Under the pieces are notes generated by a model. It was not told the origin of the DNA. It worked only from the letters and a program-made list of their open reading frames with translations, and ran no database searches. The position numbers and the translations under genes were made by a program. A stretch of 43,210 bases of DNA from an uncultured Gammaproteobacteria bacterium (GTDB lineage Bacteria > Pseudomonadota > Gammaproteobacteria > Arenicellales > JAANXG01): NCBI GenBank assembly GCA_947259175.1, contig CAMYKW010000025.1:1-43210 (forward strand), written 5' to 3'. Positions 5,387 to 11,603 of the stretch are shown piece after piece. Position 1 is the stretch's first letter. Every line of letters starts with the position of its first letter.

Positions 5387-5439
5387 CCATTGCCGTCAGC
5401 GTTAAAACAATTTCATTCACTAAGACGGAGGATTTGATC

Positions 5440-6426
5440 ATGAAAAGAGTTTTACGAAACCCGTATACGTTAGCTACATTGATGCTTGTCGGAATTCTGT
5501 TGCCGGGATTGGTTTTTGCCGACACGACGTTTTCGAAATTGTGTGTCTTTGGCGACAGCTTGTCCGATACCGGTAACGTATTCGAAGATACCGGTGAAGT
5601 GACCACGCGACCGTACGATTTGATCCCGTCGTATCCGTATCCCAGGGGTGGGCCGACATTCAGCAATGGTCGCACGTGGATTCAGCACTTCGCGAAATCC
5701 CTGAAACGCAAAAACGACGCCAAACCGGCATTTCGAGAACCCGGCCGTTTTTGTAACTACGCGTACGGCAGCGCCCGGGCCAGACAGAGGGCGGATCAGC
5801 CCTTTGACCTCCCGGGATTGGTCAACCGTTACTTTGAGAGCGTGGAGAATGCGGATGCGGACACGCTTTATATCGTGCTGGTGGGGGGCAACGATATTCG
5901 TGACGCCATCGAGGCATACTCGATTGACCCGAATGTCAGTTTGAATATGCTCAACGACGCGATAACGGCGATTGTGCAAAGCGTCTCGGATTTGGCCGCA
6001 GCCGGTGCCACCAAGTTTCTGATCATGAATGCGCCCAACCTTGGGTTGGTTCCTGCGGTCAATACACTAGGAGAACCGGTCAAGACGCTGGCGCAGTTCC
6101 TGTCATCTCAGTTCAATGATGCCTTAGCATCCGCTCTGGAAGTGCTGCCACCGGGCATCGAGGTCATGCACTTTGATCTATTTTCTTTTTCCAACAGCAT
6201 CGCCGCCGCACCGCCCGAGGGCGTGGTCGACACCACGAATTCTTGTATCACTCCGGGAGTTCGCAAGGGCGCAATCTGTGCGGATCCGGATGAATACGTG
6301 TTTTGGGACGGCATCCACCCCACGAGGATGATCCACGCAGCTTTAGCGGACGCCGTTGCGCAGGCATTACCAGCCGCCGGCTTCCGGCACGTCAAGCCAG
6401 ACCGTCGTCGCTCACGTCAAAGATAG
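5440..6426 (+). CDS. Secreted SGNH/GDSL-family esterase or lipase
   Basis: A signal peptide (TLATLMLVGILLPGLVFA) is followed by the four SGNH blocks: FGDSLSDTGN carries the nucleophile serine, a conserved glycine lies in the next block, GGNDIRDA carries the block III asparagine, and WDGIHPT carries the catalytic Asp-His pair. The mature enzyme is about 300 residues, close to the length of GDSL lipases and acyltransferases such as thermolabile-hemolysin-like proteins. The substrate is probably an ester-linked lipid or polysaccharide substituent outside the cell. The start is the ATG at 5440, with GGAGG upstream; an in-frame TTG two codons earlier has no better site. It follows the small exported protein and probably shares its sigma-54 promoter. 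Confidence 0.9.
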   Translation: MKRVLRNPYTLATLMLVGILLPGLVFADTTFSKLCVFGDSLSDTGNVFEDTGEVTTRPYDLIPSYPYPRGGPTFSNGRTWIQHFAKSLKRKNDAKPAFREPGRFCNYAYGSARARQRADQPFDLPGLVNRYFESVENADADTLYIVLVGGNDIRDAIEAYSIDPNVSLNMLNDAITAIVQSVSDLAAAGATKFLIMNAPNLGLVPAVNTLGEPVKTLAQFLSSQFNDALASALEVLPPGIEVMHFDLFSFSNSIAAAPPEGVVDTTNSCITPGVRKGAICADPDEYVFWDGIHPTRMIHAALADAVAQALPAAGFRHVKPDRRRSRQR

Positions 6427-6457
6427 CAACGGCTCAGCTGGGCTTTGCGCAGAGGAT

Positions 6458-6484
6458 CCACGGGCAGCTTTCGGCTGCCCGTGG
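6458..6484 (+). terminator. Strong hairpin after the esterase gene
   Basis: An 11-base perfect stem (CCACGGGCAGC with GCTGCCCGTGG) encloses a 5-base loop 31 bases after the stop codon. The T-rich run (TTCTTTTT) begins only about 16 bases after the stem, so this may be a weak intrinsic terminator or a 3'-end-protecting hairpin. Confidence 0.6.
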
Positions 6485-6562
6485 TCCATTGAGCGAGCGG
6501 TTCTTTTTGGCGAACCTCTCGCTTGGGTCCACGGAGTGTGCGTTGACGAGAGCGTGACGTGG

Positions 6563-6750
6563 TTAGCGCTGCAAGAGCGAACGCAGTTCGTTTATGACTA
6601 GAGTGGTGGCGAAGTTGAGCCCGCCACGCACTTTGAACGCGCCGACCGGCTGATGGTTTTCATGTTTGACATAGAGGTCCAGACCGGTCTCTTCATTCAA
6701 TCCGGTATAGGAATAAAGAGGGGTCGGCCTGATGTCGTATTGCGAATGTC
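6563..6750 (-). pseudogene. Remnant of a threonine dehydratase (PLP-dependent lyase)
   Basis: Reading leftward from about 6750, the frame gives YDIRPTPLYSYTGLNEETG, then LDLYVKHENHQPVGAFKVRGG, before ending at a TAA at 6563-6565. This is the conserved N-terminal region of threonine ammonia-lyase/serine dehydratase proteins and includes the lysine (AFK) that forms the PLP Schiff base. No ATG with a ribosome site precedes it, and the catalytic and glycine-loop regions that should follow are absent. It is therefore a fragment of about 60 residues from a gene normally over 300 residues long. The rest of the 6427-6863 gap shows no other gene. Confidence 0.75.
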
Positions 6751-6863: not shown

Positions 6864-7673
6864 TTAGTTTATCTCGCGCATCGCCGCCAGTTGATGGCTC
6901 GCTTGCAGATAGCGGCGTATCGAGCGCACGCTGACCACCGGGAACCGGCCGTCGCGCCGTGACTCTTCGCTGTGGTCATCGAAGCGGACATTGGCGCGAA
7001 ATAGATTCGCCGCGAGCTGTTTTGCGCCGGAGATGGGTATCATATCGGGCGTGAACTTCGACCAGCGCAACAGTCGTTGTGCGTCCCCGCGGTTGTCAGC
7101 GGCCAGGAACATGGATTCAGCGGAGACGATGATCTCCAGCAACCATTGATTCGAGTTCTGGTAGCGCGTTGAGTAGGGGTTGGCGATCATGTTGTAACGC
7201 GGCTCGTGCAGCCGCCGGCCGAGACCTTGTAGCAACTCCCGTTCAATGGGACGTTGCAAGGCAAGTTTGGGGACCAGAATCAGGGCGCGCAACTCGAACG
7301 GATCGTCGGTAAAAAAATTAATCAACCCCTCGACGAACAATTCCGATCGTTCGGTGCCGCAATGATTCAATTCGTGGACCACGCGCCAGCGGCCGAGCGG
7401 ATGGTTGCGCAATACGAATCCCGCGTGACTGTAGACGAGGCCGTGTTTTGACAAGTCGGCGCCGGCGCGGGCGACGATCGCCACCCGCGGCTGCAAGCGT
7501 TCCAGCTCGTCGCGAAGCTTGATCGCCAGCCGCGCCGCGGCCGAAACCGCCTGTGGCGAGACCGGTTCGGGTGCGCACACGGTTCCGGCGCCGGCGGGCA
7601 GCGCCACCAGCGCGAACACCGCGCCGAGGCGTAGTGTTCGGGTTAGCGCCGCAATCACGACGACGACACGCAT
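6864..7673 (-). CDS. DUF2145 family exported protein
   Basis: A signal peptide (LRLGAVFALVALPAGAG) leads a mature protein containing VAIVARAGADLSKHGL, YSHAGFVLR, VVHELNHCG and FVEGLINFF, the segments typical of DUF2145. Conserved His and Cys residues (HAGF, LNHCG) suggest a papain/NlpC-like fold, but no activity is established. I use the ATG at 7673, which shares its A with the stop codon of the preceding gene (TGATG); a GTG one codon earlier is the alternative. It is the last gene of a four-gene operon headed by the VIT/vWA protein, so it may process or support that surface protein. Confidence 0.8.
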   Translation of the reverse strand: MRVVVVIAALTRTLRLGAVFALVALPAGAGTVCAPEPVSPQAVSAAARLAIKLRDELERLQPRVAIVARAGADLSKHGLVYSHAGFVLRNHPLGRWRVVHELNHCGTERSELFVEGLINFFTDDPFELRALILVPKLALQRPIERELLQGLGRRLHEPRYNMIANPYSTRYQNSNQWLLEIIVSAESMFLAADNRGDAQRLLRWSKFTPDMIPISGAKQLAANLFRANVRFDDHSEESRRDGRFPVVSVRSIRRYLQASHQLAAMREIN

Positions 7674-8092
7674 CACGGGTGCGTGGATTGATGCAGCAGG
7701 GAGCGGCCCAGTTCATTGGGGATGAACGCCACCGCCTGGCCGGCGTGGGTCAACACCCACCCCGCGGTTTCGGCGACCACGGTAACGGTCTTGCCCGCCG
7801 CCAGCGACACCGCACCGACCGCCTGGGCCGACAATTCAACGCTGACCCGGCCGGCCTCGGACAGGGGTTTTAGAACCACCACCACGCTGTCGCCGACAGT
7901 GGCGACGGATTCGATCACGACCTGGCTGGCGCCGATGAAAACCTGCCCGCTGCCTTCCACGATCTTCGCCGACCCCTGCACCGATAACCGAGAGGCCTCG
8001 GACAGCGCCGAACTCTGGGCGAATGCCGTGGGAGTCAGCATCATCGGAACGGCGAATAAAGCGAACTTGAGTTTTTGCATGCATCGATTCAT
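7673..8092 (-). CDS. Small exported protein, unknown family
   Basis: The 139-residue product has a signal peptide (KFALFAVPMMLTPTAFA). The mature region is an alternation of Ser/Ala- and Val-rich stretches (SRLSVQGSAKIVEGSG, VVIESVATVGDSVVVVL, VSLAAGKTVTVVAETAG) and resembles imperfect repeats of about 35 residues. GGAGG lies seven bases before the ATG at 8092. The start overlaps the stop of the rhombosortase gene by four bases (ATGA) and its own stop overlaps the DUF2145 start, so translation of the operon is coupled. I do not recognise a named family. A small periplasmic or outer-membrane partner of the rhombosortase system is a reasonable guess only. Confidence 0.75.
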   Translation of the reverse strand: MNRCMQKLKFALFAVPMMLTPTAFAQSSALSEASRLSVQGSAKIVEGSGQVFIGASQVVIESVATVGDSVVVVLKPLSEAGRVSVELSAQAVGAVSLAAGKTVTVVAETAGWVLTHAGQAVAFIPNELGRSLLHQSTHP

Positions 8093-8664
8093 GGTCTTGC
8101 CTCCAGAGTTGTTCGCGATTGGGGCGCGTTCACCGGGCGCGTAACGGCGTAAATCAAGCCGGCGGCTAGCCCAAACAGGTGCGCGCCCGGAACCGGGGTC
8201 CAGGAGATTTGAGTCAGCAGCGCCTGTCCGCTGCCCATCTCGTAGAGTACTTTCGCCAGTGCCGCCAGCAATACCGCGGACGCCAGTGCCCGATCGCGTC
8301 TTGTTAGGATGCGCATTACCAGCGCCGCCGCCAGCACCGTGTTCAGGATGCCTGACAGTCCGCAGTAGTAGGCCAGCTGCGGGTTGCCTAAAAGAAACAG
8401 ATCTACACCGAGGATCCCGGCGCCGAGCACCGCCGGCAGGCGGCGGCCGAGATCCGCTTTGAACAGCGCGGTCAGCGTCGCCAGGGCGGCGGCGTTCCAG
8501 GCGAAATGTTCGATATCGGCGTGCACGAAGTGGCCGGTGATCAGCCGCCACCACTGGCCGGCGGCGACTGCTGCGCGGTCGTATACCCACGGCTCGGGCG
8601 CGGGGCCGAAACCGGCCCACGCGCCCGACACCACGGCGAACCACAACCAGCCGCAGCGGGACAT
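8089..8664 (-). CDS. rrtA: Rhombosortase (rhomboid-family intramembrane protease)
   Basis: This is a 191-residue polytopic membrane protein. It has the rhomboid landmarks: ITGHFVHADIEHFAWN in the first conserved helix, the nucleophile serine in GLSG (Ser104) and the catalytic histidine in PGAHLFGLAAG (His162). The short length and these spacings match rhombosortases, which cleave the GlyGly-CTERM-like C-terminal tail of exported proteins. Its start (ATG 8664, with AAGGAG upstream) lies one base after the stop of the VIT/vWA gene, whose product ends in just such a tail. The protease and its substrate therefore appear to be co-encoded. It overlaps the next gene by four bases. Confidence 0.85.
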   Translation of the reverse strand: MSRCGWLWFAVVSGAWAGFGPAPEPWVYDRAAVAAGQWWRLITGHFVHADIEHFAWNAAALATLTALFKADLGRRLPAVLGAGILGVDLFLLGNPQLAYYCGLSGILNTVLAAALVMRILTRRDRALASAVLLAALAKVLYEMGSGQALLTQISWTPVPGAHLFGLAAGLIYAVTRPVNAPQSRTTLEARP

Positions 8665-8665
8665 C

Positions 8666-10744
8666 TCACGCGCTCCTTGGCGCCCGCGGCCGCCGACGCA
8701 GCTGCACAGCGAATAGCGGCAACAGTAACAAAAACCACCAACCGTCGACCGCGCCGCTGCCGCTGAGCCCGGGGCGGCTCGACTGATACATGGGTTGTTG
8801 CGTATCGACGCGACGGCTTTGCGCCGGACGTTGCGCGCGCGCCTGTTGCGCCGCGTTCTCCACCTGCAGGCGGCGTTGATTGCGGCGATCGATGCCGCGC
8901 GTCGCGTACACTTCGTCACGCAACACCAGCATCGAGGTGTAATCGGTGACCAGTCCGAATTCGACACCGAGGTCGGTGATCGCCTGTTTGAGGTCCGCCT
9001 TCTCGCCGAACTGATCGATGCGATCCTGTAAATCACGAATCTTGGCGTAGGCCCATAAGCGCTCGATCTCCGGATTTTCGTGGGCCGCGGCGGGAAAGTT
9101 GAAGCGCGTGGTATAAACCTGCTCTTGTCCGGCGATTTTTCCCTTCACGCGCAGGGTCGCTTCGCCGGATCCCCAGTAGTGACCGAACATGACCAGTTGG
9201 TCGCCGCGGTACAGACTGCGAACCCGGGCCGGCGTGAGATCAGCGGTACGCAGGCCCTCGACTTCGATGCCCACACCGCGTAAGGCCTGATGGGTGACCT
9301 TGCTTGCGGCGAGCAGCAACTGGCCAACGATGTCGTCGCTGTTCGATATGCTGATCGCGAAGCCGCCCGACGCGTCTGTAAGTGCTTCCAGCAGTGGACG
9401 GTTGGCGCTGTTGCCCATGATAAACGTGAACAGCCGCACGTCTTTACGCTCCAGCAGCTTGAGGAAAATTTGTTGTGCGGTTTCGCCCACATTCGCGACG
9501 CCGTCGGTCACCAGAACGATCGGTGCGGTACGTTCCGCCTCCAATCCCTTCAATGCCAATTGCAAACCGGCATACAGGTTGGTGCCGCTCCCGGGCGTGA
9601 TTTGTTCCAACTCGCGGCTGTAGCGCTCCACCGCTTCCGGCGTTGCGTGCTCGAAGCCCGCGGTCAACTCGCGGGCCTCCTTGTTGAATAACACAATGCG
9701 GAATCGGTCGCCGGTTTGCATTTGGCGCAGCGATCGCTGCACGCCGTCGACCAAGGTCGCATACTTGCCCTGCATGGATCCGGAGATATCGAGTACGAAT
9801 GTCCAATCGCTGCCGCGCGCTATCGGTTGCAGGTCATCGCCCGGCGTCACCACCAGCATGAACGTCCCGCGTTGCGCCGGATCCGCCTTGTGCGCTATCA
9901 GGTCGACGGATCCCGGCAGGCCCGGCGCGAGCCGCCAATAGACGACCAGGTCTTTGGCCAGGGAAAACGCCTGTTGCCGGGTCTGTCCGGGGATCGGTAA
10001 CGGGGGTGGTGCGGTCTCCGAGTTGACGGGCGCAGCGGTGTGGCCGCGGCTGTCGATACGCACCTGCCACTCATCACTCCCGATCTGCGTCACCACCGCG
10101 CCCGCTTGCGCGGGTACCCGCACGGCATCCACGGGGTACGCCGACTTGATGCGCCAATTAAAGCTGAAGTGGTCGCGCACCTGGTCGTTGGCGGTCCAGA
10201 ACTGCAACTTGGCCTCATCGACGCCGCCCTCCTCGAGCGGATAGACATAACGGCCGATGCCGGTGTCGAGGTGGGTCGGTTGGTAGTAGCTCAAGCGTAT
10301 ACGCGTGTCCTGGCCGGCGCGCACCGGGGATACGAAGATCTCGAACGTCTTGTAGCCGTCCTGTTCCGCGAGCCCGCTGTCGCGCCCCGCCTGTTTCTCC
10401 TCCTCATAGGCGCGCCGCGCCGCTTTTTTCTCCAACACCTCGCCGGTCACCGGCTGCCCGTCGATCCACACGGTGAACTCCGCGACTGACGCCTTGTCGG
10501 GCACTGGAAACGAGTACACCGCTTCCAGGTCCCGGGCGTGGGGATTGGCAAACACCTGCTCGATGCGGGTGATTGCGTAGCCATCCTCGACATCGACGTC
10601 GACATGATGCTCGGCCAGCTCGAGGGGCGGCACACTGGCGTCGCTGGGGGTCAATAAACCGGCGGCCTGGACGCCTTGGGTCGCGAACACAAACCACAGC
10701 GCGAGGCCGGCAATGGCGCGCGTGTATACGGTGGACTTTTGCAT
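8666..10744 (-). CDS. VIT and von Willebrand A domain surface protein with sorting tail
   Basis: A signal peptide (AIAGLALWFVFATQGVQA) is followed by a VIT domain (about 30-155; VDVDVEDGYAITRIEQVF, DARDLEAVYSFPVPD-type pattern) and a vWA domain with the metal-site motif DISGS near residue 310. The last 35 residues carry GLSGSGAVDGW, a hydrophobic stretch (WFLLLLPLFAV) and an arginine cluster (LRRRPRAPR), the three-part layout of sorting tails. Related proteins (marine proteobacterial sortase-target type) usually end in LPxTG beside a sortase; here the partner is a rhombosortase. The start is the ATG at 10744 with AGGAG upstream, not an upstream ATG lacking a site. First gene of the operon; probably a cell-surface or outer-membrane adhesion or inhibitor-like protein. 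Confidence 0.9.
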   Translation of the reverse strand: MQKSTVYTRAIAGLALWFVFATQGVQAAGLLTPSDASVPPLELAEHHVDVDVEDGYAITRIEQVFANPHARDLEAVYSFPVPDKASVAEFTVWIDGQPVTGEVLEKKAARRAYEEEKQAGRDSGLAEQDGYKTFEIFVSPVRAGQDTRIRLSYYQPTHLDTGIGRYVYPLEEGGVDEAKLQFWTANDQVRDHFSFNWRIKSAYPVDAVRVPAQAGAVVTQIGSDEWQVRIDSRGHTAAPVNSETAPPPLPIPGQTRQQAFSLAKDLVVYWRLAPGLPGSVDLIAHKADPAQRGTFMLVVTPGDDLQPIARGSDWTFVLDISGSMQGKYATLVDGVQRSLRQMQTGDRFRIVLFNKEARELTAGFEHATPEAVERYSRELEQITPGSGTNLYAGLQLALKGLEAERTAPIVLVTDGVANVGETAQQIFLKLLERKDVRLFTFIMGNSANRPLLEALTDASGGFAISISNSDDIVGQLLLAASKVTHQALRGVGIEVEGLRTADLTPARVRSLYRGDQLVMFGHYWGSGEATLRVKGKIAGQEQVYTTRFNFPAAAHENPEIERLWAYAKIRDLQDRIDQFGEKADLKQAITDLGVEFGLVTDYTSMLVLRDEVYATRGIDRRNQRRLQVENAAQQARAQRPAQSRRVDTQQPMYQSSRPGLSGSGAVDGWWFLLLLPLFAVQLRRRPRAPRSA

Positions 10745-10871: not shown

Positions 10872-11603
10872 ATGTCTCAGGTTCACGAGCTCCTCGGCGC
10901 GCTGAAAACCGCGCTCAAGCAACGCGGCATCACCTACGCCGAGGTGGCGGCGCAGCTGGGTTTGTCGGAATCGAGCGTCAAACGGCTGTTCGCCACAGGC
11001 GGCTTCAAGCTCGATCGATTGCAGCAGATCTGCGACCTTGCCGAGGTCGACATCGCGGAACTCGCGCGCATCGTGGAAGCGCGGCGCCGCGACGTGGCGG
11101 AGCTGACCGAGGAGCAGGAGCAGCTTTTGGTCGCCAACGTCAAGTTGCTTTTGGTCGCGTTTTTACTGCTCAACGACTGGACCTTCGAGCAGATCGTCGG
11201 CCAGTACGCGATCACCGAAACCGAGGGTATACGGCTGTTGGCGCAACTCGACCGGTTGAAGATCATCGAACTGCAACCGGGGAACAAGGTGCGTATGCGC
11301 GTGTCGCGTTCTTTCCACTGGCGGGCACATGGTCCGATTCAGCGCTTCTTCGAGGAGCAGGTGCAAACCGAATTTTTCAAATCCCGTTTCAACGCCAAGG
11401 GAGAACTGCGCATCGTCATCAACGGTATGTTGTCGGACCGATGCAACCGGCTGCTGCAACGGAGCATGGAAAGGCTGGCCGCGGAATTCGAATCCCTGGT
11501 GCAGGAAGACCGCAAGCTCGACCTCAAGGAGCGCCGCGGCACTACCTTGATCGCGGCGATTCGTCCCTGGGGACTGGGCATCTTCGAGCAGTTGCGGCGC
11601 TAG
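10872..11603 (+). CDS. XRE-family transcriptional regulator
   Basis: Residues 1-65 form a helix-turn-helix of the XRE type (ITYAEVAAQLGLSESSVKRLF with FKLDRLQQICDLAEV). The following 180 residues form an alpha-helical ligand or oligomerisation domain that contains EEQEQLLVANVKLLLVAFLL and a winged-helix-like segment (LLAQLDRLKIIELQPGNKV). The family is common in gammaproteobacteria and its ligand is unknown. The gene is divergent from the VIT/vWA operon and about 127 bases separate the starts, so it is the obvious candidate to control that operon and itself. There is no Shine-Dalgarno sequence. Confidence 0.85.
   Translation: MSQVHELLGALKTALKQRGITYAEVAAQLGLSESSVKRLFATGGFKLDRLQQICDLAEVDIAELARIVEARRRDVAELTEEQEQLLVANVKLLLVAFLLLNDWTFEQIVGQYAITETEGIRLLAQLDRLKIIELQPGNKVRMRVSRSFHWRAHGPIQRFFEEQVQTEFFKSRFNAKGELRIVINGMLSDRCNRLLQRSMERLAAEFESLVQEDRKLDLKERRGTTLIAAIRPWGLGIFEQLRR

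Follow-up and report, generated by a model that had tools for sequence, protein, structure and literature searches.

A contig of an uncultured gammaproteobacterium of the order Arenicellales (GenBank assembly GCA_947259175.1, contig CAMYKW010000025.1, positions 1 to 43,210; the whole stretch analysed, hereafter the window) carries four coupled minus-strand genes that encode, in order, an exported VIT/vWA protein, a rhombosortase, a small exported protein termed SML and a DUF2145 protein. We tentatively read this operon as a rhombosortase display unit with a built-in phospholipid-acting module, a reading to which we give a probability of about 45% and in which we infer a link between the module and the anchor of the displayed protein. 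The junctions, read directly from the sequence, are a 1-base gap between the VIT/vWA and rhombosortase genes, a 4-base overlap (ATGA) between the rhombosortase and SML genes and a 1-base overlap (TGATG) between the SML and DUF2145 genes, just as a preliminary description of this DNA had it. The arrangement is more than chance, because the same block recurs in a second genome, G376. The VIT/vWA–rhombosortase half of the operon is known biology; the SML–DUF2145 half is new.

When the window rhombosortase was searched against 109 genomes of the order, nine matches were obtained, its own included. In G376, which belongs to another family of the same order and is 86% complete, the four genes stand in the same order and strand as in the window, with identities of 54% (VWA), 43% (rhombosortase), 44% (SML) and 45% (DUF2145). 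The other genes of the 11-kb G376 stretch have no match in the 43-kb window at E ≤ 1e-5, the one extra hit being an antisense frame of the VIT/vWA gene. The two DUF2145 proteins pair as sisters (99/98) in a tree built from 49 of 90 rows. The rhombosortase tree, which includes 5 of 30 stand-alone loci, does not draw the window and G376 together; a single clade of the two is not rejected by the approximately unbiased (AU) test (p-AU 0.27 for VWA and 0.27 for rhombosortase). Most simply, the genes were joined once and then kept together for long, some of them perhaps being replaced along the way. Two independent joinings are not required, given the DUF2145 sisters and the clade tolerated for the other two proteins.

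The first two products have the features of a substrate and its enzyme. In the VIT/vWA protein Pfam finds a VIT domain (108 bits) and a VWA domain, and the sortase-target model TIGR03788 scores it at 200.9 bits, under its cut-off of 551.65. Its tail shows the GlyGly-CTERM traits, i.e., a Gly-rich motif, here reading SGSG, a hydrophobic stretch and a basic end; the Gly-Ser spacer, hydrophobic stretch and Arg cluster named earlier are indeed present at residues 657–692. Homologues lacking the tail had been proposed as counter-evidence; the 21 orthologues aligned with it all carry Gly-rich tails. The GlyGly-CTERM model TIGR03501 (cut-off 15.5 bits) has no match to the VIT/vWA protein at E ≤ 1 and nothing over cut-off in the window's genome. 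Because this model does not detect the tail, we call it GlyGly-type and do not file it under TIGR03501. The rhombosortase scores 61 bits with Pfam Rhomboid and 115.9 bits with TIGR03902 of NCBIfam (cut-off 84), and is the only TIGR03902 member over cut-off found in the genome. Residue numbering confirms the rhomboid dyad given in the preliminary description, Ser104 (in GLSG) and His162. The VIT/vWA protein is the predicted substrate of this rhombosortase.

A survey of 274 genomes of the class places this pair in context. An orthologue of the VIT/vWA protein occurs in 15 of them, with the tail seen in 14 (in G034 the reading frame is interrupted and the tail is not seen). All 15 carry a rhombosortase over cut-off, versus 94 of 274 overall; it adjoins the VIT/vWA gene in six and is located elsewhere in nine. 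When three G264 relatives and additional genomes of the order are added, the number with adjacent pairs comes to 16, including the window, G376 and the near copies G353 and G297, so the rhombosortase is, as first proposed, a neighbouring partner of the VIT/vWA protein. A type II secretin over cut-off was found in 14 of the 16, among them the window's genome and G376. Dedicated adjacent rhombosortase–target pairs were published by Haft and Varghese in 2011, as was a VIT/vWA family in which GlyGly, PEP-CTERM and LPXTG tails are exchanged (PMC3237569).

Of the 15 genomes in which an orthologue occurs, 10 also contain a sortase-type VIT/vWA paralogue over the TIGR03788 cut-off, in a search limited to E ≤ 1e-30 and to the scoring of no more than four candidates in each genome; the window's genome has one match at this threshold, the operon's own VIT/vWA protein. 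Because 10 of the 15 genomes carry both, GlyGly-type and sortase-type VIT/vWA proteins are coexisting paralogues. The proposal that the sorting enzyme was swapped in place, a rhombosortase for a sortase, is rejected on the same count, and the exchange of tails had already been described (PMC3237569). Nor does the LPxTG specificity assumed for the related sortase hold: the motif lies within the last 80 residues in 0 of the 30 best sortase-type relatives, a label that rests on TIGR03788 score and tails, and TA[TNS] lies within the last 60 residues in 25 of them. The tails of the sortase-type proteins of the class (L242–L271) are mostly P-x-T-A-T-like. A sortase adjacency scan of these 30 loci, positive in 6, suffered from reading frames drawn too long and was set aside.

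SML and DUF2145 make up a separate module. Among named genomes a scan for DUF2145 yielded 281 relatives, and all counts out of 80 refer to the best 80 of these 281; two of the 80 loci share their contigs with G068 and G295, and flanks are short where contigs end. SML stands upstream of DUF2145 in 74 of the 80 loci, at most 132 bases away in all 74 and with a 4-base overlap in 27; because the DUF2145 start nearest to the end of SML was chosen each time, short gaps are favoured. As for the six loci without SML, L179 and L220 are cut by contig ends, L182 has another gene, and L229, L231 and L236 have a caspase-like gene. This gene (Peptidase_C14 by Pfam in L229 and L231, by likeness in L236) overlaps DUF2145 at the usual place of SML. 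At one of the 80 loci a VIT/vWA relative lies about 5 kb off, distantly similar to that of the window (E 2e-29).

A less biased sample came from PF09916 searches and comprised six Ser-type loci, the G376 block and nine Cys-type loci, one of them incomplete; DUF2145 fragments in G174, G281 and G285 were assigned to neither type. SML is upstream in six of the seven Ser-type loci, the G376 block included, and none was seen in G165. A different small exported protein precedes DUF2145 in all nine Cys-type loci. In these loci (L032–L036, L039, L160, L315 and L316) that protein is Ala/Gly/Val-rich. Homology between it and SML is not established, the hhalign probability being 35% and confined to the signal-peptide region; three of the Cys-type upstream proteins are weak hits of the SML profile, with E between 2e-4 and 4e-3. 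SML itself has no Pfam family, the best match, TOBE_3, lying below cut-off (E 0.013). Its model, a predicted small barrel, has a predicted local distance difference test (pLDDT) score of 77, and the best VIA-align fold comparison reaches Z 6.6, among tied rows; the family alignment holds 61 of the 74 SML rows plus the window's. In L043 (G199) an SML gene at 6209–6583 departs from the family in its C-terminal part through an apparent frame change, and no DUF2145 was found in that locus.

DUF2145 is assigned by PF09916 at 205.6 bits (gathering cut-off 25; profile positions 2–200 of 200). An AlphaFold2 model reached pLDDT 94.2 with an alignment of 87 rows, i.e., 77 of the 80 loci (two without a start and one omitted were left out), the window's protein, three Ser-type and six Cys-type rows. 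VIA-align, run on Foldseek candidates, superposed this model on YiiX (2if6) with Z 12.4 over 161 residues (root mean square deviation 3.4) and on the Bacillus cereus C92 enzyme, of the same permuted NlpC/P60 group, with Z 9.3. DUF2145 is thus confidently predicted to have a circularly permuted NlpC/P60 fold. His83 and Tyr160 are invariant in all 87 rows (81 of 81 Ser-type), His100 is kept in 76 of the 81 Ser-type rows, and Cys replaces Ser174 in all six Cys-type rows. In the predicted model His83 lies on strand 83–90 and Ser174 opens helix 174–186, so that a His precedes a candidate nucleophile opening the core helix, the order of permuted NlpC/P60 proteins; the start of the core helix is also where papain-fold nucleophiles sit (PMC10318531). 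His83, His100, Tyr160 and Ser174 form a candidate active site. We file DUF2145 as a fold relative only, because Ser174 replaces the catalytic Cys.

This classification has a precedent, in that a survey of papain-like proteins had already counted DUF2145 among the members of the superfamily and remarked on its Ser (PMC10318531); no mention of a Cys-bearing subtype was found in the available part of that paper. Among permuted relatives, YiiX crystals contained a fatty acid (PMC7387801), cleavage of a fatty acid–amino acid amide was proposed for YiiX/C92 enzymes (PMC3142127), Tox-Act1 was reported to cleave phosphatidylglycerol and phosphatidylethanolamine (PE) (PMC12994826), and LnsA, with a membrane partner, is required for lipoprotein N-acylation (PMC7387801).

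The neighbours of DUF2145 also point to phospholipids. A gene of the LplT-Aas type (lysophospholipid transporter/acyltransferase) lies in 28 of the 80 DUF2145 loci, adjacent on the same strand in 19, and these loci span Burkholderiales, Rhodocyclales, Nitrosomonadales, Neisseriales, Legionellales and one alphaproteobacterium. In windows of about 9 kb such a gene is present in 26 of 78 DUF2145 versus 0 of 59 stand-alone rhombosortase loci (p 5e-8, which overstates the strength as the genomes are related). Five of the 28 were checked against Pfam and NCBIfam, the remainder resting on phmmer at E ≤ 1e-45: L219 is a full three-domain Aas (1706 bits, over the NCBIfam cut-off), and the other four are below cut-off without a ligase domain, L202 also without an acyltransferase hit. 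Lysophospholipids are flipped inward by LplT and re-acylated by Aas (PMC11416262); an exported enzyme that makes them, a role we infer for DUF2145, would therefore have natural partners in these two.

A single family of Cro/C1-type helix-turn-helix (HTH) regulators touches both operon halves, also where the halves are apart. Relatives of the HTH gene divergent from the window operon flank 21 of the 80 Ser-type and 6 of the 9 Cys-type DUF2145 loci as well as 3 of the 15 other VIT/vWA–rhombosortase pairs; they adjoin two GlyGly-type VIT/vWA genes without an adjacent rhombosortase and are found at 0 of 59 control rhombosortase loci. The second, Cys-type DUF2145 locus of G376 carries the HTH gene. 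The LplT-Aas and HTH counts are not independent, and many of the loci are from Burkholderiales.

On the reading that we favour, the VIT/vWA protein would, as read from its sequence, be exported by its signal peptide, and its GlyGly-type tail would hold it in the inner membrane. SML and DUF2145 would form an exported pair in which the YiiX/LRAT-like DUF2145, with Ser174 as candidate nucleophile, acts on acyl groups of periplasmic phospholipids and SML is its usual partner, as the predicted fold, conserved residues and gene neighbours suggest. Operon conservation alone suggests the further step, that this activity may serve the VIT/vWA protein's lipid anchor or dispose of lysolipid made around it; the anchor could be built, trimmed or removed by a phospholipid-acting pair, which would equally suit the clearing of lysolipid. 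A narrower form of this account, which we hold to be rather unlikely, makes DUF2145 the second enzyme of the anchor: the rhombosortase would free the C-terminus, and the papain-fold Ser enzyme with its small partner would build, trim or reverse a PE anchor. This form is contained in the general account, so the two estimates do not sum to a whole. How a rhombosortase substrate gains its ethanolamine-lipid anchor was left open in work on VesB, where a second enzyme was considered possible with no evidence for one (PMC6219818), and the operon gives a concrete candidate. Beyond that, our findings provide a function lead for DUF2145, define its small partner and link its neighbourhood to lysophospholipid recycling. 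A search of open-licence papers found DUF2145 named in a single one and nothing joining any two of rhombosortase, DUF2145 and "vault protein inter-alpha-trypsin".

Several observations weigh against this account. SML–DUF2145 accompanies only 2 of the 16 pairs, 15 of which are informative (the contig of G264 ends about 270 bases after the gene). No rhombosortase lies in the fetched flanks of any of the 80 named DUF2145 loci, and the co-occurrence check that the preliminary description had suggested found no association by genome (3 of 11 DUF2145 genomes versus 94 of 274 overall, p 0.75). These two results reject SML–DUF2145 as a dedicated part of rhombosortase systems generally; what remains of the idea that both proteins are parts of the display system is that two lineages have them in one operon with the pair. 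The window and the nine Cys-type loci yielded no LplT-Aas-type gene, and the HTH gene is absent from the four-gene block of G376. In the VWA tree, built without G297, a starred branch (96/96) separates the window from G376, and the SML of G376 does not figure among the top seven BLAST hits of the window's SML, so some genes of the block may have been replaced. As to the enzyme, Foldseek alone gave the DUF2145 model no match with E ≤ 0.001, VIA-align rows under Z 8 (TseH 7.7, human CLN5 5.2) may, as the tool itself warns, reflect no more than a widespread arrangement, Ser instead of Cys may mean an inactive protein, and no DUF2145 biochemistry was found in the open-licence papers.

The same 80 loci and the lack of co-occurrence would be expected if two unrelated modules merely share a transcript, SML–DUF2145 having been placed behind the rhombosortase once, with an envelope-lipid job of its own that leaves the VIT/vWA protein untouched, and a single joining would account for both blocks. 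We regard this as a serious possibility, short of even odds, since the block has stayed intact though identity dropped to 43–54% and no other nearby gene is in common, the window junctions overlap or lie one base apart, and elsewhere one regulator family is common to both halves. If Ser-type DUF2145 were instead a pseudoenzyme, binding lipid or lipoprotein together with SML, and its Cys-type relatives were the active enzymes, the Ser found where all six Cys-type rows have Cys would be explained. The superfamily survey, which noted this Ser together with a positively charged pocket, called activity speculative (PMC10318531). A scaffold would not need the His83 and Tyr160 kept in 81 of 81 Ser-type rows, nor the His100 kept in 76, which makes the pseudoenzyme improbable to us; Ser174 in the 77 scan-derived rows is fixed by the scan, whose pattern demanded Ser-Asn (and so fixed Asn175 as well) in the 80 loci. 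A long shot is an anchor-removing hydrolase, in which DUF2145 would cut the amide between the new C-terminus and an ethanolamine lipid and so release the surface protein. Papain-fold Atg4 does the like for Atg8-PE. The amide cleavage proposed for YiiX/C92 enzymes (PMC3142127) and the comparison of the VesB modification with Atg8-PE by its authors (PMC6219818) would suit such a hydrolase, but the module usually has no rhombosortase nearby, so an anchor of this kind cannot be its general substrate.

Features of the operon and its divergent regulator in the window
Feature	Coordinates	Strand	Basis
VIT/vWA exported protein, 692 aa, predicted rhombosortase substrate	8666..10744	-	Pfam VIT + VWA
C-terminal sorting tail of VIT/vWA protein, residues 657-692: RPGLSGSGAVDGWW, hydrophobic stretch, Arg cluster	8669..8776	-	Alignment with 21 orthologous tails
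Rhombosortase, 191 aa, Ser104/His162	8089..8664	-	TIGR03902
SML, small exported DUF2145 partner, 139 aa, predicted small beta barrel and C-terminal FIPNELGRSLLH motif	7673..8092	-	Upstream of DUF2145 in 74/80 loci
DUF2145 protein, 269 aa, predicted circularly permuted NlpC/P60 fold	6864..7673	-	PF09916, model, VIA-align, conservation
Cro/C1-type HTH regulator, divergent from operon	10872..11603	+	PF13443

Convergent with the operon lies a GDSL lipase/acylhydrolase gene (5434–6426, plus strand), another possible acyl hydrolase, for which no counterpart was matched in the G376 locus. Rfam has no match anywhere in the window.

The operon can be compared with several known systems. As in the GlyGly-CTERM pairs of Haft and Varghese, the target gene adjoins the rhombosortase, and a VIT/vWA GlyGly family appears in their Figure 3C; the window differs in its SGSG tail, which escapes TIGR03501, and in its second half, no mention of SML or DUF2145 having been found in the available part of that paper (PMC3237569). 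With the "marine proteobacterial sortase target" proteins of TIGR03788 the VIT/vWA protein shares VIT and vWA domains and a C-terminal sorting tail, yet it scores 200.9 versus 551.65 bits and has another tail, and the paralogue coexists in 10 of 15 genomes. The VesB/rhombosortase system of Vibrio cholerae offers GlyGly-tail cleavage and conjugation to a glycerophosphoethanolamine-containing moiety, although its substrate, VesB, is a protease (PMC6219818). LplT-Aas remodelling is represented by relatives near SML–DUF2145 in 28 of 80 loci (PMC11416262), but not, as far as found, in the window. With the permuted NlpC/P60 enzymes of the YiiX/C92/LRAT group, several of which act on phospholipid or fatty-acyl bonds, DUF2145 shares the predicted fold, a His before the nucleophile and a conserved Tyr (PMC3142127, PMC12994826), whereas its candidate nucleophile is a Ser and a small partner gene accompanies it in most loci. 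LnsAB differs in targeting lipoprotein N-termini and in that LnsB is CAAX-protease-like and no rhomboid; like the operon, it combines a secreted NlpC/P60 protein, matched best by permuted members, with a polytopic membrane protein remotely homologous to proteases, and it puts an acyl chain on surface proteins (PMC7387801).

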